Below, piece after piece: positions 28,285 to 39,658 of a DNA stretch of 64,000 nt. Made by a program: the position numbers and the translations under genes. Under the pieces are notes generated by a model. That model searched no databases, was not told the origin of the DNA, and worked only from the letters and a program-made list of their open reading frames with translations. This DNA comes from Ruminococcus sp. (GTDB lineage Bacteria > Bacillota > Clostridia > Oscillospirales > Ruminococcaceae). Position 1 is the first letter of the stretch; each line of letters opens with the position of its first letter. The stretch covers positions 1 to 64,000 of the forward strand of contig NZ_JAFUAG010000034.1 of the NCBI RefSeq assembly GCF_017464355.1, given 5' to 3'.

Positions 28285-28433
28285 AAAAAATCAGGCAGCC
28301 GAAGCTGCCTGATTTCAGGATATATCAAATTGAGATATTACCTTTTGAATGTAAGTTCTCACTTAAAGTAATTGACCGCATTCTCAGAGAAGTAGTACTG
28401 AGCCTCGTTCATCTTCTGGAGGATCTGGGTCTT
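28285..28433. repeat. 149-bp near-identical 3'-end repeat, copy B (with minus-strand terminator)
   Basis: This is the counterpart of 19628-19776. The hairpin AAATCAGGCAGC/GCTGCCTGATTT (28288-28315) with a minus-strand U-run terminates the giant surface gene. The remainder is spacer plus the last ~25 codons. Confidence 0.85.
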
Positions 28434-31400
28434 AGCACTGGGATTAGCCTTCTCGCTGATAGACTTGAAGTAGTCGTTCAGCTGATACCCGCCAATAACA
28501 GTTGCATCGCCGATCACAACACCGTAAGCATTCGCCTTGTTGACGTACTTTGCGGCGATAGATGCAGACTCGATATAAATCTCGCTTCCACTCTTTGCTA
28601 CGGTAAATTTACCACTCTGCATCTTCATGGTGGAACCGTACTTTTCGAGCGCTTCATCAACTGTCATGTCAACGGGCTTGAAGTAATGACGTATCTTTGT
28701 TCCCGAAGTCTGTATCAGCGATGAACCTGTATACTTGAGTTCAATGTTTGCAGCTTCAAGCTGAGCATTTACTGCATCGTAAGTGATCAGTTCTCTGTCA
28801 GCCAGCATTTCATTGTAGTCTGTCAGGTTTTCTCTTGCGTATGCTCTCTGAGCTTCAGTCAGGAACTCGTCAGCATATTCGCTTTCGATGTTGTTGTAGT
28901 TGAAGTACTTCTGCGCCTGTGTGCCGAACTCTACCATATTGATAAGCATCTTCCTGAGGTCTTCATTCTTGGTCTTATCAATGGTGGTCTTTGCGTATTC
29001 GACTATCGAATATTCTTCTTCTATAACAGGCTCTTCCTCGCCTTCAACGTATACTTCCAGTTTGACATTATCGCTCATCTGATATGCATACATTTCCAGC
29101 TGGAACTTGAATTCGTCATATCCCACATTGTACTGGCACGCACCTGCGCTTGCAGGAGCAACGTTCTCAATAACTTCGGTCACAACCTCGCCCTTCTTGT
29201 TGTCATAGTGCTTCGTAGTGAACTTAGCTGTTACCGCCTTATCACCGTAGTCCTTCATATCTACGTAGAAGTTCAGTTTGATAGGGCCGTCAAGTGTCAG
29301 GGAATGTCCATCCACCTTCGCCTCAACAGCATTCTCCTCAACTGTCCAGGTGAGCATTACTTCACCGGTGTAGTTGCCGTCTTCCTTAGCCTTCAGGAAT
29401 ATCTTGTACTCGCCGGGCTTTTCAGCAACGTCCTCAGACTTATCGGTGTCGATCTCGTAGTCAACGTCCTTGGTAAGCTCGGTAACTATGTCGGGAGTGA
29501 TCTCAGCAGTTGAACCTGCTGTGATCTTTGAAACGGGTATGCTGAACATATCCTCTGTGAGAGTTATCTTGCCTACTGACAGTGTACCTGTGAGGTCATT
29601 CTCAAGCTTGTAGTTGGGGTTGCTTATCTCGACATCAGCCACTGCTGCTGTCATGTCATAATTGCCTACAGCTCTGTGCTCTGCGCCGTCTTCAAGTTCG
29701 GGAAGTTTCAGTTTCTTTACAGTTACTTCCACTTCGTCGCCTTCGATAGCGCCTGTTACGTTCTCGACCTCTGCAGTGGTGGGATCCTCTGCGCCGTAGT
29801 CGATAGTTATATCCTTAAGCTGAGCTGTCAGGGTCTTCTGCCCAATGGTGAACTCTGCTTCAAAGGTCTTGCTCTCGTAGCCTTCAGCTTCAAGTGTAGC
29901 CTTGACAGTATAGCTGCCTGCGTTTACAGGAGCCTCGCTGCCTATGGACTCGCCTGCTTCGTTGAAGAACTCGTAAGAAACTGCGGTATCTGCGGGGTCG
30001 CTGTCCTTAGTTACAAGCTCATAATCAAGGGTGTCGCCATAGGTCACTTCGTCAACTTCGTAATCTCTGTCAGCAAAAGCGTTGTCAACTATGCTCCAGT
30101 CGATGTAAGCTGTGCCTACAAAGTTATTCTGGCCTCTGAGCTGAGTATTGTAGGTGCCGACATTGGAAGCGCTCTTGTTGCCACTCTTGTGAGCGTAATC
30201 AATTGCATATGTCAGGGTGCCGTCCGCGTCTTCCTTCCAGACATTACCTGCATAGGTCAGGGTAAGCAGACCTGCGTCCTTCTCTATCCAGTATTCTTCG
30301 CCTGTGTAGATGAACTTGCCGTCGTCCTTGACGGTTATGGTAACAAGCTGCTCGTCGCTGATGTCAACGGGATCAACGATAAACTTAGCATCTTCCGCAA
30401 GTGTTACGTTGTAGTTATTGTATGCTTCGTTAGTCGTGGGGATAACCAGCTTGTAGCCGTACCTACCTACAACACCCTTATCCGCTGCATAAGCGTCATC
30501 TGCGTCGAGCAGATCCTCGCCATTGAAGATACCGTCCTTTTCGGCTGCTGCGGTAGCCCCTGTTACGGTATACTCATGATCAAAGTCGGTTTTACCATCG
30601 GTAGAACCGTAGGTTACCTTGGTCATCTTAGGTGTGATGATCACGTTTGCCTTGTTGATCTCAAACTGAGCAACAGAGCTTGCAGCCTCAAAGTTAGCGG
30701 TAGCAGCTGTGCTTACCTCTACCCAGTACTTGCCTGCGTTCTTGGGAGCAGCTTCAAGAGCAGCACCCTTTGCGTCGTTATTGTCAGCGTAGAACTTAAG
30801 TGTAAACTCCTCAGAGTCGGTATTGCCGTTAGTAACATTGAAATCAGTCTTGTCAACTGCTTCGCCGTCATAGGTGATAGTTCCATTGACTGCTATTTCC
30901 AGAGCAGGAACGACCGATGTGATCTTATAGGTCTTAGTAACAGTGCCTGTGTAGTTGCCCTGACCTGTTACAGTTACTGTATATTCGCCTGCATTGGTGC
31001 TATCGGGGATATCCAGGCTGTAGGTCTTATCGCCTGCTTCAATAACCGAACCATTATAGCCCTTAACTGTTACTTCGGGCTGCTGAACTGAGCCATTGAA
31101 ATCAAATGCAGCCTTGTTAAGACTTACATCATCATCTTTGAGCCGACGTGCTTCAACTGTAAGCTGATACTTTCCTTCTTCGATATCGGAGATCTTAGGC
31201 TGAACAGCGATAGTGTAGTTGTTAGCTGCAGCATTGTAAGCCTCTATAGCCTCTGCATCTGCTTCGATGTCATAAGTACCTACATCGTCGCCTGCTTCGT
31301 AGTCTACTGTGAAGATATCGCCGAAATCATCCGAATCGCCGTATGCAACTTCGTCATCTACAATATTGTAATCAAGAACAAAGTCTTCACCGAATTCAAT

Positions 31401-34400
31401 TGTTTCCTCGATGGGCTTAACATTCAGTGCCTTCTTGTTGATGACAAGCTTACCTGTAACAGATGTTATGTTGTAGTTTTTGTTGGTAGTGCTTGCTGTA
31501 ACAGTATAGCCTTCCTCATTTGCTTTCAGACAACGGTTTTCTGTACTGTAGTATTCCTGGCTAAGACTACCTATTTCTATTTCGACTACATCTTCTCCTA
31601 CAGCACCTACAACAGTAGGTTCAAGATTTCTCTTAAGATCATCATACTCACTTATGTCGCCGTAGGTGAATTCCTTGTTTGTCAGGGAAACGGTCACGTC
31701 CTTAGGTGTGATCTTGAAGGTGCCTTCAAGGTCCTTAGCAAGGTAGTTCTTGGTAGCGGGTATGTGTGCTACTACCTTGTAGCTGCCTGCATCAACAGGT
31801 GCTGTATTAAGAGGAACCTGCTCATTGTCACCGATCTTATAGTAATCATAAGTGATCTGTGTGCCTTCGTTCAGGGTCTCGGGGGCAGTTGCATCGACAG
31901 AGATAGCCTGTCCGTCATAGGTCTTGGTGTCGTCGGTGGTCTCTTCGGTGCCGTTGATCTTCAGCTTGCTGATATCATTTTCAATATTGCCGATAGACCA
32001 GTTCAGTTCTGCAGAGCCCTTATAGTTGCCCTGACCTGTTACCTTAACGGTATAGTCGCCTGTATCGGTAGCCTTGGAAGTGCTGTTCTCGGTATCGATA
32101 ACGAAATCGGTATCCTTCACAAGTGCCTTATTATCCAGCTTGGGCTCAGTGCCTTCGACCTTTACCTCATGCTCATTCTTGTCATAGGTGATCTTGTTGT
32201 CGGCGCTCAGACCTTCGCCTGTCAGTTTCAGTTCAGCCTTAGAGATATCCTTGGGTTCGATAGTGAAGGACTGCCTAAATGCCAGGGTCGATCCGTCCAT
32301 AGGAAGTTCTGCCTTGACAATATAGTTGCCTGCGTTAACGGGCTTTTCACTCGTCCAGTTGATGACAGTGCTGTCCGATGTGCCTTCATTATCGGTAACA
32401 TTCTGGTAGAGTTTTTCTGCAAGGCCTGCAACATCAATGTCATCGACCATGTTAACTATCTCGGGTTCAAACTGATCGCCATAGGTCAGCTTTCCTTCTT
32501 CAACAGGGTCAACAGGTACTATCTCAAGTTTAGCTACTTCCTCAGGCTCAGAGTTAATTATATTCAGATCCTGACGATACAGAATGTTCTCGGTGTTAGT
32601 GTACCTGTAGTTGACATCGTGGTCTACCTTTATCTCGTTGACAGGCTGATCCAGAACGGACAGATCAAGAGTGTATACCTTAAGCCCGTTCTTAGTGCCC
32701 GAGGTAACAGCGTCCTCAGGTATACCCTCAAAGGTAAGAGTACCCTTGGTCATTATCTTGCACTGGCCTGCAGGGTCGATACCTACAACATAGTTGTCGG
32801 GAACATCAGTGCCGTTCACCTGGAGTTCCAGACCGAGATCCTTAACTTCGGTCAGGTCGAGCCTGGTGTTTATAGTTGCAGTTACAGAACCTATTTCGGA
32901 GTCAATATAGTCATCACTGCTCCATTCAGCGGTTCCTGCCTTGTAGTTAATGGTGTACTTGCCTGCGTTACAAACCTCAAAGTCGGAAGAATACTCGTAC
33001 CATTCATCACCTGTGCTGGGCTTGTACAGCATAACACCGGGGGAAGCGGAACCCAAGCTTTCAAGGAGGTCATGATATCCACCGTCGTATATAATGCCTT
33101 CTGCTGCTGTAGGTGCTTCACTGACCTTTGCCTTTATGCAAACCTTGTATAAAGTCTCACCGTTTTCTTTGATCTCCTTTATGCCGCGGTCATATCCGTC
33201 ATAACTTTCATCAGCTAAAAAGCGATCTTCAGGTATATATTTGAAAATACCTTCATAGATACAGAACTCGCCATCATCTGAAGTAAACAAACGTTCATTG
33301 ACACGGATCTTACTTCCACGAATCTTAATAATACCGTTATTCTTCGAGGTCAAATAACCATCTATGGTGCAGTCTTTGATATTCAGTTTAGTATGGCTTT
33401 CGATATTGGCTTCAACATTACCACCGCTTATAGTGATCTCATCTTGTGAGTTGATAATGATTTCCCCGGTATATGAAGCGCTCTCATCAACATCTATAGT
33501 ATTACCATTAAGGTCGATCACAGCACCCTTGGTGAGTTCAACGTTATCTTCACCAATAGTAAAAGTACCGTTTTCATCAAACTTAAGGTAGCTGCCCGAA
33601 GCATAATCACCGTCGTTGAACAGTTTCAGGTCATCAAGCGAGGTTATCAGGTAGGGGCTTTCTTCTGTGCCTTCGCCTTCAAGGGTGGCTTCGGCTACAA
33701 CATCATTGCCGTCATCGTCAGTGGTACGCTCATACCCGTCAGCGATGTACTTATCATATTCAGGATCAATGCCGTCCTCAAACGTACCGCCTTTTATGAT
33801 CACATCATCATCACTAACATTTTCTTCATTGATATTGAGTGCAGTGAAATATCCACCGTTAATAGTTGCCGTACCATCGTCAATATCAGGTGCGTCGAAA
33901 TAACCACCGTTTATAGTAACATCACCGGTATTTGTAAGACCCTGTATCGCACCTTTATTGATAATGAGCGTACCGGAGTTTTCTATATGGATAAGACTGC
34001 CAAGACTGTCAGAGTAAGAATCGTCCGTGCCTTCAGGGACGCTGCTGTCGTTGACAGTAAGTGATACACCCTCAGGAACAACGATATGCTCACCGCCTGA
34101 ACCTGTCTCGCAAACCTCTATCCAGGAACCGTTAAGGTCGAGGACAGTATCTTTATTGAATACAAAGTCTTCGGGTTCGGGAAGATTTATTCCCGTTTTA
34201 TTATTCCCTTCATCATAAGGGGGATCAAGCTTTATATAGATATCACCGTTTTCGCCGTAGTCGCTGTCGGGGTCGTTGTACAGCGCCAGGTCATCAAAAG
34301 AGGTTATGATGTAGGGGTTTTCTTCTGTGCCTTCGCCTTCAAGGGTGGTCTGCTGCTGGCTGTCAGCAACAACATTAAATACATAAGGGTCTTCACTTGT

Positions 34401-35276
34401 GCCGCTGCCTGATACTACGAATTCGGAAGCTTCGAGAGTAGAGTCAGTATTACCTGTGTTTATTACATTACAGTTGCTCAGTGAAGGCATGATAACAAAA
34501 AGCCAACCCCAACCATAATCTTCCGTGTAATCCTTTCCCGTAAGATAAACAAAGCTATTGGCAGGCAGGGTCAATTTATCCTTATTTGCCATACCATAAA
34601 CGGCAATATACACATCATTGTCAGTATTGTTCTTAAGAACATCACCGACCTTGTATCTTGCGCCGTCGGCAATATTCACGGTATCGGCGGCAACGACAGT
34701 ATAGATGTGATCTTCGTTGTTAAAAACAATACCACAGCCTTCGGCTAACGTAAAGCCGCTGTATTCCGATAAGTATCCATACTGACCGCCGGATATGTTC
34801 CAAGTACCACCATTATTAGACACATCATAAAATGTGCCGCCAGCAGTGTTAACTGTTCCGCTTCTGATATTTAACCTTCCATAAAGTATACCGGTTTTCT
34901 CAGCACTGTTATCTGTTATCGTTAGGGTATTACCGCTTTCGATATAACCATCTTCCACTCTAAACCTTTCAACAGTAAGTGTATGCCCATTCAGGTCGAT
35001 AGTTATATCACCTGCACATTCAGATAAATACAGATCGACACTGTCAGATATGGAAATATCATTCTCGAGCCTATAGGTTTTGTCTGATTGTGCTGAAGCA
35101 TTTTGAATAGCAGCAACAAAATCAGATTCTGACATTTCGGTCGAATCCGCATTAGCCACAATATTCGTTCTGAACACATCTACCACAGGCTGTACGGGCA
35201 CAGCACCGCCAACAACAAGCACTGCACATACACCTGCTACCAATCTCTTGAGATCATGGGATAAATTTCTAGCCAT
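28359..35276 (-). CDS. Giant secreted protein with pectate-lyase-like and MBG/Ig-like repeats
   Basis: This 2,305-residue protein has an atypical long signal peptide (MARNLSHDLKRLVAGVCAVL, then VVGGAVPVQP). A repeat-rich beta-helix-like region fills about 45-700, with GEGTEENPYIITSFDDL- and GEGTEESPYLITSLDDL-like modules and runs of WNISGGQYG and ITINGGYF. From about 900 to 2,000 lie MBG/YDG-type Ig repeats (TYDKNEHEV, GDYTVKVTGQGNYKG, GEYTVTVTGQGNYTG). The last ~100 residues form a domain shared with the decayed paralogue, ending SENAVNYFK. There is no dockerin, LPXTG or SLH motif, so the attachment mode is unknown; the C-terminal domain is a candidate. It probably acts outside the cell as an adhesin. 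A 27-codon leader ORF overlaps its ATG, and one terminator follows. Confidence 0.88.
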   Translation of the reverse strand: MARNLSHDLKRLVAGVCAVLVVGGAVPVQPVVDVFRTNIVANADSTEMSESDFVAAIQNASAQSDKTYRLENDISISDSVDLYLSECAGDITIDLNGHTLTVERFRVEDGYIESGNTLTITDNSAEKTGILYGRLNIRSGTVNTAGGTFYDVSNNGGTWNISGGQYGYLSEYSGFTLAEGCGIVFNNEDHIYTVVAADTVNIADGARYKVGDVLKNNTDNDVYIAVYGMANKDKLTLPANSFVYLTGKDYTEDYGWGWLFVIMPSLSNCNVINTGNTDSTLEASEFVVSGSGTSEDPYVFNVVADSQQQTTLEGEGTEENPYIITSFDDLALYNDPDSDYGENGDIYIKLDPPYDEGNNKTGINLPEPEDFVFNKDTVLDLNGSWIEVCETGSGGEHIVVPEGVSLTVNDSSVPEGTDDSYSDSLGSLIHIENSGTLIINKGAIQGLTNTGDVTINGGYFDAPDIDDGTATINGGYFTALNINEENVSDDDVIIKGGTFEDGIDPEYDKYIADGYERTTDDDGNDVVAEATLEGEGTEESPYLITSLDDLKLFNDGDYASGSYLKFDENGTFTIGEDNVELTKGAVIDLNGNTIDVDESASYTGEIIINSQDEITISGGNVEANIESHTKLNIKDCTIDGYLTSKNNGIIKIRGSKIRVNERLFTSDDGEFCIYEGIFKYIPEDRFLADESYDGYDRGIKEIKENGETLYKVCIKAKVSEAPTAAEGIIYDGGYHDLLESLGSASPGVMLYKPSTGDEWYEYSSDFEVCNAGKYTINYKAGTAEWSSDDYIDSEIGSVTATINTRLDLTEVKDLGLELQVNGTDVPDNYVVGIDPAGQCKIMTKGTLTFEGIPEDAVTSGTKNGLKVYTLDLSVLDQPVNEIKVDHDVNYRYTNTENILYRQDLNIINSEPEEVAKLEIVPVDPVEEGKLTYGDQFEPEIVNMVDDIDVAGLAEKLYQNVTDNEGTSDSTVINWTSEKPVNAGNYIVKAELPMDGSTLAFRQSFTIEPKDISKAELKLTGEGLSADNKITYDKNEHEVKVEGTEPKLDNKALVKDTDFVIDTENSTSKATDTGDYTVKVTGQGNYKGSAELNWSIGNIENDISKLKINGTEETTDDTKTYDGQAISVDATAPETLNEGTQITYDYYKIGDNEQVPLNTAPVDAGSYKVVAHIPATKNYLAKDLEGTFKITPKDVTVSLTNKEFTYGDISEYDDLKRNLEPTVVGAVGEDVVEIEIGSLSQEYYSTENRCLKANEEGYTVTASTTNKNYNITSVTGKLVINKKALNVKPIEETIEFGEDFVLDYNIVDDEVAYGDSDDFGDIFTVDYEAGDDVGTYDIEADAEAIEAYNAAANNYTIAVQPKISDIEEGKYQLTVEARRLKDDDVSLNKAAFDFNGSVQQPEVTVKGYNGSVIEAGDKTYSLDIPDSTNAGEYTVTVTGQGNYTGTVTKTYKITSVVPALEIAVNGTITYDGEAVDKTDFNVTNGNTDSEEFTLKFYADNNDAKGAALEAAPKNAGKYWVEVSTAATANFEAASSVAQFEINKANVIITPKMTKVTYGSTDGKTDFDHEYTVTGATAAAEKDGIFNGEDLLDADDAYAADKGVVGRYGYKLVIPTTNEAYNNYNVTLAEDAKFIVDPVDISDEQLVTITVKDDGKFIYTGEEYWIEKDAGLLTLTYAGNVWKEDADGTLTYAIDYAHKSGNKSASNVGTYNTQLRGQNNFVGTAYIDWSIVDNAFADRDYEVDEVTYGDTLDYELVTKDSDPADTAVSYEFFNEAGESIGSEAPVNAGSYTVKATLEAEGYESKTFEAEFTIGQKTLTAQLKDITIDYGAEDPTTAEVENVTGAIEGDEVEVTVKKLKLPELEDGAEHRAVGNYDMTAAVADVEISNPNYKLENDLTGTLSVGKITLTEDMFSIPVSKITAGSTAEITPDIVTELTKDVDYEIDTDKSEDVAEKPGEYKIFLKAKEDGNYTGEVMLTWTVEENAVEAKVDGHSLTLDGPIKLNFYVDMKDYGDKAVTAKFTTKHYDNKKGEVVTEVIENVAPASAGACQYNVGYDEFKFQLEMYAYQMSDNVKLEVYVEGEEEPVIEEEYSIVEYAKTTIDKTKNEDLRKMLINMVEFGTQAQKYFNYNNIESEYADEFLTEAQRAYARENLTDYNEMLADRELITYDAVNAQLEAANIELKYTGSSLIQTSGTKIRHYFKPVDMTVDEALEKYGSTMKMQSGKFTVAKSGSEIYIESASIAAKYVNKANAYGVVIGDATVIGGYQLNDYFKSISEKANPSAKTQILQKMNEAQYYFSENAVNYFK

Positions 35277-35950: not shown

Positions 35951-35979
35951 AAAACCTTTTTTCACCCTGCGACATCTAA
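35951..35979 (+). promoter_or_regulatory. ECF-type promoter of the sigma-factor operon
   Basis: AAAACCTTTT (35951-35960) and GCGACATCTAA (ATCTAA at 35974-35979) have the same 23-nt phase as the two sites before the dockerin gene at 38081 and 38194. It resembles ECF promoters (AAC in the -35 region, CGTC/ATCTA in the -10 region) and probably marks autoregulation. Confidence 0.7.
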
Positions 35980-36028: not shown

Positions 36029-36166
36029 GTGACATTCAAGCAGTTGCTGAAAGCTATCTTCGAGCATATGGCCGCTAAAGGTATGCTTGAAGACCTTGAA
36101 AAGAAATATCCGCAGGAAGATGAACAGGAGAACACAGTAAGGAGTGAGATAAGTGGAGCGCAGTAA
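36029..36166 (+). CDS. 45-residue small protein upstream of the sigma factor
   Basis: GTG 36029 follows AAGGAGA at ten bases. The product begins with a helix (TFKQLLKAIFEHMAAKGMLE) and continues acidic (KYPQEDEQENT). It overlaps the sigma gene by 14 bp. It has no membrane helix and no recognised family. It could modulate the sigma factor or simply couple translation. Confidence 0.55.
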   Translation: MTFKQLLKAIFEHMAAKGMLEDLEKKYPQEDEQENTVRSEISGAQ

Positions 36167-38003
36167 TACTGTGGACAACGAAGTGATAAAGCTTGCTGCA
36201 AACGGCGATGCTGCGGCTTTTGACACTATCTACCGTGCTTACAGAGATAAGATATACTATTTTGTTGTGAAGCTGGGCGCCAAGCCCCAGGACGCTGAGG
36301 ACATAGTTTCGGAAACTTTCCTTGAAGCCATGAAGCATATGCAGGAGCTTAAAAATGAAAGCGGGCTGTCCTCGTGGCTGCACACCATAGCCAAGAACAA
36401 GTTTTTCGCCCTCGGCCGAAAAGAGAGCCGCCACCAGCGCGTTGACCTGCTGGCCGATGACGAGGAGGGCAATGTCAACGAGGGTCTTGAACTGGCTATG
36501 CAGCATTCGGCCGAGCTGAATGACGACACTATCATGCTGCCCGAGGACTACGCCGAAAGCGAGGAGACCAAGGATATTCTGGCGGGCATGATAAATTCCC
36601 TCAACGAGAACCAGCGTGAGGCCATATACCTTTTTTATCACAGGGACAAGTCACTGGAGCAGATATCTCAGCTGACAGGGGCTTCGGTGAACACGGTGAA
36701 ATCCAGGATACACCAGGCCAAGAACCACCTGCGCAAAATGATAAAAGAGCTGCAGGACAAGGGCGTGGTGCTTTGTGCAGCGCCTGTTTCCTCGCTGTTC
36801 AAGGCCTGTGAGGGTAAGGTCACTGTTAAGACAGGCGGCTTCATTCCCAAGGCACTGGGCAGCCTTTCCACAAAGATAGTGGCTGCTGCCTGCGCCGTAG
36901 CTATCGGCGGAACAGGCATAGCTCTCGCCTGCGGGCTGAAAGGCGACAACACCATGGTGGACAGGGAGTCCATGAACATTCGCCCCGATCTGCCTGACAG
37001 CATGGTCAACAACTACATCAAAGACGATGACGGCAGGACAGAGGTCATTGATATACTTGACGATGACAGTCTTCCCGAACAGACCGTGGCTGAGCGCAAG
37101 GACGAAGCCCTTGTCTTCGCTGATGACGAAAACGCTGACGAGGTCTTGAATGTGAACAGTGCTGATTATCGCGGGAACACTTCGGGCACGGGCACAGCAC
37201 GTTCGTCGGAAAGCACCTATTACGAGCCCGCAGGCGGTGAGGAGGGAGAAGCTTTCGAGGAAGCACCCGGGCTGCTGACTTTCACAAGCAGCAAGGGCAG
37301 CACTTTCACGGCGCAGGCAGGCGACGTTATAAAGTACGATCTGTACTTCAGCAGTGAAGAAACTGTCGTAGGGCTGGATCTGGGGTTTGATATTCCCGAG
37401 GGTTATGAGCTTGTCGGGTTCGTTCCCGCAGATGATACTCTGCAGGACCGTCTGGGCTTTGATGATTATTCCTTTAGACATTATAATACTGTTGAAGAGA
37501 AAGAAAAGTTTAACTTCGATTCGGATTACAGGTTCGTTGCCTATCCCAATTTCGATACCGTTCATGATTTCAGCAGCATAGACAGATCAGTTGTGGGTTC
37601 GCTGCTCGTTAGGCTGAAAGATAATGCCTCGGCTGACAACACTGCTATAGCTCTGGAGAATATCGTGGTATCTTCCAAAGATAATGATGTTATCGATGAT
37701 ACAGAGAATTATATAATGGAGATACTGCCCGAAAACAAAGCTGCTACTGCCGATATCAAAGCTGCCGAGAATGCGGCGAAAAAAGCCACTGAGGATATCG
37801 ATGATATTACGGACGAGAAGTACGATGCTTTTGAAAACAGCAGCGATGAGACCACCACTGACGCAGAAGATATCCTTGACACAGCCGCTGAGGACGATGA
37901 CTTCCCGAAATATCTTGATGACAATGAACTTCTGGAATTTCTGGATAGCTTAGGCCTTTCAGAACTCTACGATGAACTCTTCGGCCAGTCCGTTGCCGAC
38001 TAA
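36153..38003 (+). CDS. Membrane-tethered ECF sigma factor with cohesin-like outer domain
   Basis: This 616-residue fusion starts at GTG 36153 (AAGGAG eight bases upstream). Residues 1-200 are a complete ECF sigma factor: region 2 (AAFDTIYRAYRDKIYYFV, then DAEDIVSETFLEA) and region 4 (LNENQREAIYLFYHRDKS, then ASVNTVKSRIHQAK). A membrane helix follows at about 241-262. The outer part has an acidic linker, a cohesin/carbohydrate-binding-like beta domain at about 372-530 (FTAQAGDVIKYDLYFSSEE, VVGLDLGFDIPEGY) and an acidic tail. Normally a separate anti-sigma factor carries the membrane helix and sensor domain (compare RsgI of cellulolytic clostridia). Here sigma and sensor are one chain, so activation would need proteolysis or signalling in place. 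Its promoter motif recurs before the next gene. Confidence 0.85.
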   Translation: MERSNTVDNEVIKLAANGDAAAFDTIYRAYRDKIYYFVVKLGAKPQDAEDIVSETFLEAMKHMQELKNESGLSSWLHTIAKNKFFALGRKESRHQRVDLLADDEEGNVNEGLELAMQHSAELNDDTIMLPEDYAESEETKDILAGMINSLNENQREAIYLFYHRDKSLEQISQLTGASVNTVKSRIHQAKNHLRKMIKELQDKGVVLCAAPVSSLFKACEGKVTVKTGGFIPKALGSLSTKIVAAACAVAIGGTGIALACGLKGDNTMVDRESMNIRPDLPDSMVNNYIKDDDGRTEVIDILDDDSLPEQTVAERKDEALVFADDENADEVLNVNSADYRGNTSGTGTARSSESTYYEPAGGEEGEAFEEAPGLLTFTSSKGSTFTAQAGDVIKYDLYFSSEETVVGLDLGFDIPEGYELVGFVPADDTLQDRLGFDDYSFRHYNTVEEKEKFNFDSDYRFVAYPNFDTVHDFSSIDRSVVGSLLVRLKDNASADNTAIALENIVVSSKDNDVIDDTENYIMEILPENKAATADIKAAENAAKKATEDIDDITDEKYDAFENSSDETTTDAEDILDTAAEDDDFPKYLDDNELLEFLDSLGLSELYDELFGQSVAD

Positions 38004-38080: not shown

Positions 38081-38109
38081 AAACCTTTTCGCTTTATGTG
38101 GTATCTAAG
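38081..38109 (+). promoter_or_regulatory. ECF-type promoter, distal site of the dockerin gene
   Basis: AAAACCTTTT (38081-38090) and GTGGTATCTAA (ATCTAA 38104-38109), 23 nt start to start, as in the sigma operon. Confidence 0.7.
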
Positions 38110-38193: not shown

Positions 38194-38222
38194 AAAACCT
38201 TTTTGCTGTATGCGGTATCTAA
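38194..38222 (+). promoter_or_regulatory. ECF-type promoter, proximal site of the dockerin gene
   Basis: AAAACCTTTTT (from 38194) and GCGGTATCTAA (ATCTAA 38217-38222). The surrounding ~55 bp (TTTTGTTTACAAA to TAATGTAAGTTC) is a near-copy of the distal site, so the promoter was tandemly duplicated. Confidence 0.72.
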
Positions 38223-38356
38223 GTAATGTAAGTTCCCGAGTTGAGCATAGAGTTCATCATTTATAACGATGCTGTCATCATTGACCGCATCTTTATATAG
38301 ACGGAAACTAAGGCAAAAAAACTTCATACCAAAACTAGAAAACGGAGGAAATGAAA

Positions 38357-39658
38357 ATGTGTGATTTCAAAAGAATTGCAGCTGCAGCAGCTGCAATGAC
38401 AATGGCATTCGGTACATTCGTTACCGCAAACGCTGATGAGGCGCAGGCACCTGCTAAGGTACCTACTGTTGAACTGGTCAGCAGAGATGATACTGTAAGG
38501 GGCGGCGATTACAAGAAGTACGACATCATGTACACTCAGGAAGGCGCTGCTACAGGCATTAAGTTCAGACTTGATATGCCCAAGGGCATGGAAATGGTAG
38601 ATATGACCCTCAACGAGAGCGATATCCGTGATGAGCTGGACTTTGAGATGGTATCTGTTAGCAAGAAGATGGTCATTTCAGCATTCGACGGTGACGGCCA
38701 GCTGTGCGATGAAGCCAAGACAGTAAAGATCGGTACTGTAGTTGTAAAGACCAACGGCGTTGACGGCGACCTCAGCATAAAGGGTACCGAGAACAGAAGA
38801 GCTTATTCTGAAGACCTCAAGGAAATGGAAGAAAAGCTTAATGAGCTGGACACAGATGAATTCACTGACCTGTACGCCGAAGATGAAGACCTTATATATG
38901 ACTGCATCGATGATTACATGGAGTTCGCTGACCTGAAGCTCACCTTCACACCTGATGTGGCTTCTGCCAAGGCAGGCGACACCGTTACATACAAGGTAGA
39001 CCTGACTACTGATAAGGATATAGCTATATTCCAGACATCTGTACTGTTCTCTGACGTACTGGAATATGACCACTATGTAGGTGAGGACGAGTTCGATATC
39101 CCCAACGACTTCAACTATGACCTGGTATTTCCCGGTGACATAGATAACGAAGTATTCGATAACCCCGATTACACCTTTGTAGGCATGAACAAGTCCTATT
39201 TCTCTTTAGAAGTGGAAGACGGTCACAAGTATACCAACGCAGAGGTAAACTCCCTTACAGCAGGTACCCACTATCTGTGCGACCTGGCATTCAAGGCTGT
39301 AACTGATATCGACGATACAAACGGTCTGTTCGACAATTACTACACCATCGCCATCAACAACGATGTAGAGGGCGATTTTGATACAGACTCTTCTCCCATG
39401 ACCTTCACCCAGAAGCTGAACAGCGCTCTGACAGACATGAATGCTGTAAACGACAGCAAGTCCGAGGTAAAGGGCGATGTTAACGGCAGCAGCGAGGTCG
39501 ATGTATCTGACCTGACAGGTGTTGCTGCACACGTAAAGGGCATCAGAAACGTTGATGAGTACTACTTCGACAACGCTGATGTTGACGGCGACGGCGAACT
39601 GACCGTTACTGACCTGACCAAGATCGCTGCTCACGTTAAGGGCATCAGAGCTCTGTGA
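38357..39658 (+). CDS. Secreted protein with cohesin-like domains and C-terminal dockerin
   Basis: This ~433-residue secreted protein has a signal peptide ending near TANADEA. Two cohesin/carbohydrate-binding-like beta domains follow (about 30-155 and 200-350; GGDYKKYDIMYTQEG, then AKAGDTVTYKVDLTTDKDIA). The C-terminal type I dockerin has two Ca-binding repeats: DVNGSSEVDVSDLTGVAAHV and DVDGDGELTVTDLTKIAAHV, each followed by KGIR. The dockerin implies assembly on a cohesin-bearing scaffold. The first domain shares layout with the outer domain of the sigma factor upstream. ATG 38357 is favoured over 38351, since GGAGG is eight bases before it. Two ECF-type promoters precede it and a strong terminator follows. 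Confidence 0.87.
   Translation: MCDFKRIAAAAAAMTMAFGTFVTANADEAQAPAKVPTVELVSRDDTVRGGDYKKYDIMYTQEGAATGIKFRLDMPKGMEMVDMTLNESDIRDELDFEMVSVSKKMVISAFDGDGQLCDEAKTVKIGTVVVKTNGVDGDLSIKGTENRRAYSEDLKEMEEKLNELDTDEFTDLYAEDEDLIYDCIDDYMEFADLKLTFTPDVASAKAGDTVTYKVDLTTDKDIAIFQTSVLFSDVLEYDHYVGEDEFDIPNDFNYDLVFPGDIDNEVFDNPDYTFVGMNKSYFSLEVEDGHKYTNAEVNSLTAGTHYLCDLAFKAVTDIDDTNGLFDNYYTIAINNDVEGDFDTDSSPMTFTQKLNSALTDMNAVNDSKSEVKGDVNGSSEVDVSDLTGVAAHVKGIRNVDEYYFDNADVDGDGELTVTDLTKIAAHVKGIRAL

Follow-up and report, generated by a model that had tools for sequence, protein, structure and literature searches.

How is the production of cohesin- and dockerin-bearing parts controlled in fibre-degrading bacteria such as Ruminococcus? 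One account of these organisms states that this regulation is not yet understood (PMC4081043), and a second paper limits the dedicated set of RsgI sensors to bacteria that make Acetivibrio-type cellulosomes (PMC11557425). The question is raised anew by a locus in a stretch of 64,000 nucleotides from Ruminococcus sp. (here called the window), where an ECF sigma factor, a membrane helix and an outer domain are encoded in a single frame. For this tethered sigma factor a promoter, a target and a lock protein can be predicted, which makes cohesin/dockerin regulation testable with one operon; the clade to which it belongs, whose outer sensors look swappable, would also be a source of ready-made sensor-to-promoter parts. 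It is likely that the protein is a one-piece transmembrane ECF receptor that regulates its own operon, controls the adjacent cellulosome-type dockerin protein, and is probably set free by proteolysis.

Sigma factor, membrane helix and outer part on one chain

Two overlapping plus-strand open reading frames, of 45 and 616 amino acids, occupy positions 36,029 to 38,003 (Table 1). The longer product scores 93.8 bits against the TIGR02937 (sigma70-ECF) model, for which the cut-off is 42.9, and no region-3 family is among its Pfam matches at E values up to 1. Its composition, with regions 2 and 4 above the family cut-off and no region 3, is that of an ECF sigma factor. A membrane helix, called by hydropathy alone, follows in frame, and the outer part extends from there to residue 616. 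The initial annotation had proposed exactly this order of parts, and Pfam, TIGR02937 and hydropathy bear it out. The sigma factor itself is tethered, because sigma domains and helix lie on one chain, which is the arrangement of a fused, membrane-bound ECF protein.

Near full-length orthologues are present in two other genomes of the genus, G026 (53% identity, 592-aa frame) and G023 (51%, 564 aa). The fusion at 36153-38003 is therefore not an assembly error, and the search for homologues that keep it, which had been suggested with the initial annotation, shows that it is not unique to this assembly.

Table 1 Features of the tethered sigma/dockerin locus in the window
Feature	Position	Strand	Basis
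Promoter-like bipartite motif before small gene and sigma gene	35952..35979	+	Exact match; predicted self-regulation
Small upstream gene, 45 aa	36029..36166	+	GTG start, AAAGGAG ribosome site
Membrane-tethered ECF sigma factor	36153..38003	+	GTG start, 616 aa
Sigma region 2, residues 26-93	36228..36431	+	Sigma70_r2 PF04542, E 7.2e-13
Sigma region 4, residues 142-195	36576..36737	+	PF08281 (Sigma70_r4_2), E 4.7e-12 at 142-193; PF04545, E 2.2e-9 at 147-195
Juxtamembrane motif VVLCAAPVSSLF, residues 205-216	36765..36800	+	Pro211 in 38/38 subfamily-A members
Single membrane helix, residues 242-260	36876..36932	+	Kyte-Doolittle 19-residue mean 2.18
Sigma outer domain, residues 372-525	37266..37727	+	hhalign E 8.9e-14 and 1.2e-15
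Promoter-like motif, first copy before dockerin gene	38081..38108	+	Exact match
Promoter-like motif, second copy before dockerin gene	38195..38222	+	Exact match
Predicted target: secreted-looking protein, two modules and C-terminal dockerin	38351..39658	+	Dockerin_1, E 5.9e-8, residues 374-427
Module 1 of the predicted target, homologous to sigma outer domain	38459..38782	+	Profile comparison

No zinc-finger anti-sigma domain follows the sigma part in Pfam matches at E values up to 1; residues 196-238 consist of a short motif and a variable linker. The outer anti-sigma domain of IutY, a tethered sigma factor considered below, is FecR-like, and Pfam finds no FecR domain in the 616-aa protein or either orthologue.

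The clade and its small partner gene

Matches to the 616-aa protein occur in all 29 genus genomes searched, many of them ordinary ECF sigma factors. From about 60 listed matches with frames of at least 350 aa, 44 long tethered members were drawn, four from the window's own genome and 40 from 20 others (21 of the 29 genomes). Their starts were set by a ribosome-site rule and may be off, and one member, L082, has no start in its row. A hydrophobic segment follows region 4 in all 44. The four members of the own genome lie on contigs C15 (36153-38003), C12, C22 and C19. The same genome has a 562-aa reading frame on another contig (L012; C25:75246-75440) in which sigma region 2, close to the N-terminus, is followed by a long C-terminal part; hydropathy finds no membrane helix in it.

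Thirty-eight members form subfamily A, which carries an LCAVPV..ML-like (CAVP-type) motif between region 4 and the helix. The six members of subfamily B have a related VPVLTKIL-type stretch after a short insert. In a tree with 24 ordinary sigma sequences, support is 0.956 for the A clade, 1.0 for the B clade and 0.241 for A and B together, and these values are unchanged when the tree is read without re-rooting. The tree thus does not support the idea that the tether arose once for both subfamilies.

At the family level, 108 of 148 genomes match at E 1e-20, again often through plain ECFs, and long frames stand out in four of them (G140, G098, G029 and G173). In G173, which belongs to another genus, the tethered-sigma profile has 15 matches, and the frames of 13 measure 367-578 aa. 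In the phylum-wide search of 398 genomes, matches at E 1e-35 that run past the helix come only from the four own proteins, G234 (a stop-containing frame of 303 aa), G412 and G420; all remaining matches in the list stop at model positions 184-206. Rarer or weaker members can be missed in both searches, which scored at most 18 candidates per genome for the family and at most six for the phylum.

Five relatives combine an ECF sigma factor and an FtsX/MacB-like permease in a single chain of about 1100-1180 aa: L096 (1315-4839, minus strand), L097 (3404-6934, plus), L098 (1417-4686, minus), L100 (448-3966, minus) and L109 (1180-4722, minus). The permease is recognized by Pfam in four and by length and helices only in L098. 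Each has seven or eight hydrophobic windows, the juxtamembrane motif being one. An ABC ATPase gene directly follows in L096 and L109, the next reading frame after L098 is on the opposite strand, and the sequence examined for L097 and L100 ends shortly after the fusion.

Conservation along the chain is uneven. Mean pairwise identity in subfamily A is 0.462 in region 2 and 0.474 in region 4, remains at 0.405 in the motif at residues 205-216, drops to 0.193 in the linker after it, rises to 0.397 in the membrane helix and falls to 0.197 in the outer stalk. Pro211 is invariant in all 33 rows of alignment A1. Such a conserved patch between the DNA-binding domain and the membrane helix suggests a regulatory contact.

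The same segment bears on how the sigma part might reach RNA polymerase. Membrane-bound regulators of the ToxR/CadC kind act while attached to the membrane, and the sigma factor could likewise work in place, its outer domain acting by conformation or clustering. The single helix with its inner linker of about 22-25 residues would allow this, no protease gene is recognized among the neighbouring genes scanned, and the FtsX-permease fusions make shedding by a simple cut seem less natural. However, IutY, a fused ECF studied in detail, is reported to be cut free (PMC5411451), and the helix considered here is Ala/Gly-rich and about as conserved as the motif, which is expected, if not proven, of a protease substrate. 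We regard action in the attached state as unlikely, and release as the better account. A full-length M50 protease gene is present in the own genome, but matches also occur in all 14 control genomes, so its presence adds little to the case for release.

The small gene ends within the start of the sigma gene, the overlap being 14 nt in all three orthologous loci and 8-14 nt in most of the other automatically found pairs. Among the three orthologues, pS is 0.66-0.87 versus a pN of 0.18-0.23, and differences are distributed over the three codon positions as 12:3:22, 10:3:24 and 9:3:22 in the three pairs. This pattern is that of a protein gene. A family HMM built from 21 automatically found small ORFs matches upstream of 35 of the 44 tethered sigmas, 14 of these loci lying outside the building set, versus none of 20 other sigma genes. 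The controls comprise 16 sigma genes of the own genome (about five of them sporulation-/SigH-type by eye, and one the long C25 frame) and four ordinary ECFs, L028-L031; in a looser scan carried out earlier, two controls, C26:184151 and C28:40028, did have small ORFs flagged next to them, but these are unrelated. The nine loci missed by the HMM are the six of subfamily B, L083a, L086 and L097. A similar small ORF is visible by eye at L097 and a fragment at L086, and no such gene is seen at the other seven.

Judged by this conservation, the 45-codon ORF is a real gene and a conserved partner of the tethered sigma family. The initial annotation had seen no separate anti-sigma factor except this overlapping ORF. 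That view stands for the two flanking genes, neither of which matches an anti-sigma factor in Pfam, but the ORF itself is not incidental. The window's 45-aa protein matches no family in Pfam or NCBIfam at E values up to 1. By eye, its pattern is a helix with DELIxxILxxM followed by a second, charged helix. The likeliest role, which we put forward tentatively, is that of a mini anti-sigma factor or co-regulator. The overlap with the sigma start would also suit a translational coupling device whose product has no function. Against this, the small protein is under strong purifying selection, and the DELIxxILxxM pattern, which the HMM recovered outside its building set, is family-wide; a role in coupling only seems improbable.

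A promoter-like motif, a dockerin protein and a shared module

A 28-bp motif, AAACCTTTT-N12-N-ATCTAA, has three exact copies in the window (mean in window shuffles 0.00). They are the only exact sites in the own genome, all at the sigma/dockerin locus. There are none with one mismatch and seven with two, and a reversed control gives four at up to two mismatches. Two of the seven precede other sigma genes on contig C12. One, at C12:63090, lies about 360 bp before the C12 tethered sigma; the other, at C12:67896, lies about 200 bp before the region-2 match of an ECF at C12:68097. Neighbouring sigmas may therefore read similar sequences.

Six exact sites are found in the 29 genomes, three in the own genome, one in G023 and two in G026, every one at the orthologous loci; in G023 the copy ahead of the sigma operon departs from the motif at one position. 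Another eight one-mismatch sites, located elsewhere in six genomes, are background, since the reversed control yields 17 at up to one mismatch. When the own genome, from which the motif was taken, is left out, exact sites occur in both genomes with an orthologue and in none of the 26 without one, a split with a chance of 1/378 (0.0026) if genomes are taken as independent. The order motif, small gene, sigma, motif, dockerin protein is common to the three loci, with two motif copies before the dockerin gene in the window and one in each of the others. Three elements do not vary across the seven sites of three species: TTAAAACC, the (T/A)TTT that follows it, and ATCTAA. The four sites before the target genes also have in common TTTACAA upstream and GGTATCTAAGTA around the -10 part, among further shared bases.

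Related patterns precede other tethered sigmas. AACC...CGTC is found upstream of 14 of the 44 (shuffle mean 0.39, maximum 3; opposite strand 1), AAC...TCTAA upstream of 16 (mean 2.23, maximum 8; opposite strand 0) and AACC...TCTA upstream of 17 (mean 1.04, maximum 5; opposite strand 0). The three patterns were selected once these same regions had been inspected, and the members share ancestry, so the contrast is indicative. These upstream motifs fit a scheme in which each tethered sigma reads its own operon. At some loci the candidate autoregulatory promoter is arranged in tandem arrays with a period of about 66 bp, with five copies at L079 (-488 to -224), four at L081 and three at L090.

By co-occurrence, the motif is paired with the tethered sigma. 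Another regulator or sigma factor might nevertheless be its reader, so that its position would reflect co-regulation of the locus and not self-regulation. The two-mismatch copies before other C12 sigma genes point that way. Exact copies, however, are restricted to genomes with an orthologue and to its locus, the spacing of -35 AAC and -10 TCTAA is one that we take to be ECF-like, and other tethered sigmas carry their own versions upstream. A foreign reader is accordingly quite improbable, and recognition by the tethered sigma itself is the preferred reading.

The predicted target downstream has a signal-peptide-like start (by eye), and its build resembles that of R. flavefaciens FD-1 proteins reported to have two cohesins and a C-terminal dockerin (PMC4081043). 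In the three species, its module 1 aligns to the sigma outer domain with identities of 31 and 38% over 52 aa and 29% over 66 aa, at E values of 1.7e-7, 6.4e-9 and 8.0e-7 obtained against a tiny database. Profile-profile comparisons (hhalign) with no shared rows give a probability of 98.1% for the outer domain and module 1 (E 8.9e-14) and 98.6% for the outer domain and a group of sorting-tailed surface proteins (E 1.2e-15). A comparison of profiles A7 and A8 is inflated by the presence of L106 and L107 in both, and the row-disjoint comparisons were used instead. By these profile comparisons, the sigma outer domain is homologous both to module 1 and to the sorting-tailed proteins. The connection to dockerins, which the initial annotation had drawn from the organism at large, is thus closer than it supposed: the predicted target is itself a dockerin protein with a module homologous to the sensor.

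A profile of the domain matches 12 of the 29 genus genomes. The family includes single-module proteins of about 280-300 aa in several genomes, the own one among them (contig C23), with a conserved C-terminal tail that ends in SKKRK and looks like a sorting signal by eye. Near-identical signal regions and tails are seen in L189:2768-3673 (own C23), L106, L107 and L192-L197. Identification of the proteins of about 280 aa as ScaE was dropped; neither L106 nor A8 matched a scaffoldin, and only a ScaE-like build is claimed for them. Repeats of the domain occur in a 717-aa protein of G025 and in a dockerin protein of 886 aa encoded in the own genome (L190:1904-4561, contig C26). The latter is built like a scaffoldin, with three profile-detected sensor-type modules and, at its C-terminus, a dockerin (E 1.6e-9). 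On the other side of the sigma operon, and divergent from it, a 2305-aa protein with MBG repeats (Pfam MBG_3, four stretches) is encoded on the minus strand at 28359-35276.

The initial annotation had called the outer domain cohesin-like. The domain is there, but the likeness to cohesins is less clear. Among the proteins scanned, namely the sigma factor and its orthologues, dockerin proteins and related surface proteins, none matches Pfam cohesin PF00963. Against 177,635 PDB sequences, the broad domain profile ranks two scaffoldin entries highest, 5m2o (E 0.053) and 5aoz (E 0.081), neither of them significant. The narrower profiles A7 and A8 find no cohesin there (the four matches of A8 are unrelated), nor do single-sequence PDB searches. 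Compared with 12 Pfam cohesins, the broad profile gives E 0.0014 and the narrower ones E 0.012 and 0.023, with probabilities of 17.5, 3.6 and 2.1%. A cohesin identity for the outer domain is no more than plausible on this profile evidence.

A model of control and its known relatives

With regions 2 and 4 well over the cut-off and identities of 77 and 73% to the two orthologues between residue 1 and the membrane helix, it is hardly credible that the sigma part is a degenerate decoy or structural anchor, a reading for which no supporting point was found. The model that we consider likely is as follows. In the resting state, the sigma part would be held by the membrane helix, the juxtamembrane motif and the small protein, the last being the likeliest lock: a two-helix mini anti-sigma factor or co-regulator acting with the motif. 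The outer module would serve as sensor, and the signal would be the meeting or loss of a partner at the cell surface, which would make the sigma part available to RNA polymerase. Release would most likely be a two-step proteolysis, with an outer cut followed by cleavage by an M50 site-2 protease. The freed sigma would then transcribe from AAACCTTTT-N12-NATCTAA, amplifying its own operon and switching on the adjacent dockerin gene. The module common to sensor and product could allow the secreted product to compete with the sensor for its partner, which would close the loop.

The regulon predicted in this way is tiny. Counted against the model are the presence of candidate autoregulatory motifs upstream of only a minority of members by any of the three patterns, the lack of the small gene in subfamily B and L083a, and the two-mismatch motifs before other sigma genes on C12.

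A wider reading is possible, though we think it doubtful. It holds that these bacteria sense their surface through a whole clade of one-protein ECF receptors and use neither sigma/anti-sigma pairs nor RsgI for the purpose. The fixed core, comprising the small two-helix lock protein, the ECF sigma, the CAVP motif and one helix, would be fitted with swapped sensors: a cohesin-like module, other domains, or even an FtsX transporter permease. The window's cell would then measure its own cellulosome-type surface assembly, since the sensor copies the target's module, and the tethered and the secreted copy would be rivals for a single surface partner.

Among known systems, SigI/RsgI of Clostridium (Acetivibrio) thermocellum is similar in that the sigma factor for cellulosome-type genes answers to an outer module of a membrane protein, but two proteins are described there, and the tethered sigma here is of ECF type (PMC11557425). 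The difference from this split arrangement that the initial annotation had emphasized is real: the RsgI_N domain is found in none of the 29 genus genomes, the control in B. subtilis is positive, and a SigI/RsgI reading of the locus was rejected. As a departure from other systems, however, tethering has precedents in other phyla.

Fused ECFs already described include IutY, ECF48, ECF52 and ECF53, and some ECF36 proteins have N-terminal helices (PMC8999054; PMC5826349). In the actinobacterial groups ECF52 (SCO4117), ECF48 and ECF53, an ECF sigma is likewise followed by a membrane helix and a long outer extension, which in ECF52 includes a carbohydrate-binding domain, and proteolysis has been proposed for the three (PMC5826349; PMC8999054). 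ECF52 is reported to be exclusive to Actinobacteria (PMC5826349; PMC8999054). The ECF48/52/53 proteins are described with a zinc finger between sigma and helix, whereas the clade considered here has the short CAVP motif and a separate small protein. In a literature search, neither the tethered clade nor its small gene was found described, nor was any sigma factor bearing a cohesin-like or FtsX sensor; the 2021 ECF re-classification, where the clade may already be listed, lies outside that search. Within the literature searched, then, tethering of sigma factors is known elsewhere, and the clade and its small gene appear to be undescribed.

For the small protein, an analogue by pattern is CnrY of Cupriavidus metallidurans, a cytoplasmic anti-sigma domain whose two helices embrace regions 2 and 4 of the ECF sigma factor CnrH and hold it closed, thereby inhibiting it (PMC4598750). 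CnrY differs in belonging to a membrane-linked sensor system (PMC4598750).

The closest working model for the tethered sigma appears to be IutY of Pseudomonas putida (ECF243), in which sigma and anti-sigma share one polypeptide (PMC8999054). It too has an N-terminal ECF sigma, one membrane segment and an outer C-terminal domain that takes the signal. IutY is reported to be trimmed outside by Prc and then cut by the site-2 protease RseP, freeing a sigma part of about 23 kDa (PMC5411451), a step that we infer for the 616-aa protein. The outer part of IutY is a cell-surface-signalling anti-sigma domain that works with an outer-membrane receptor, whereas the clade described here carries a cohesin-like or variable module, its window member resides in a presumably Gram-positive cell, and a small partner gene stands beside it.
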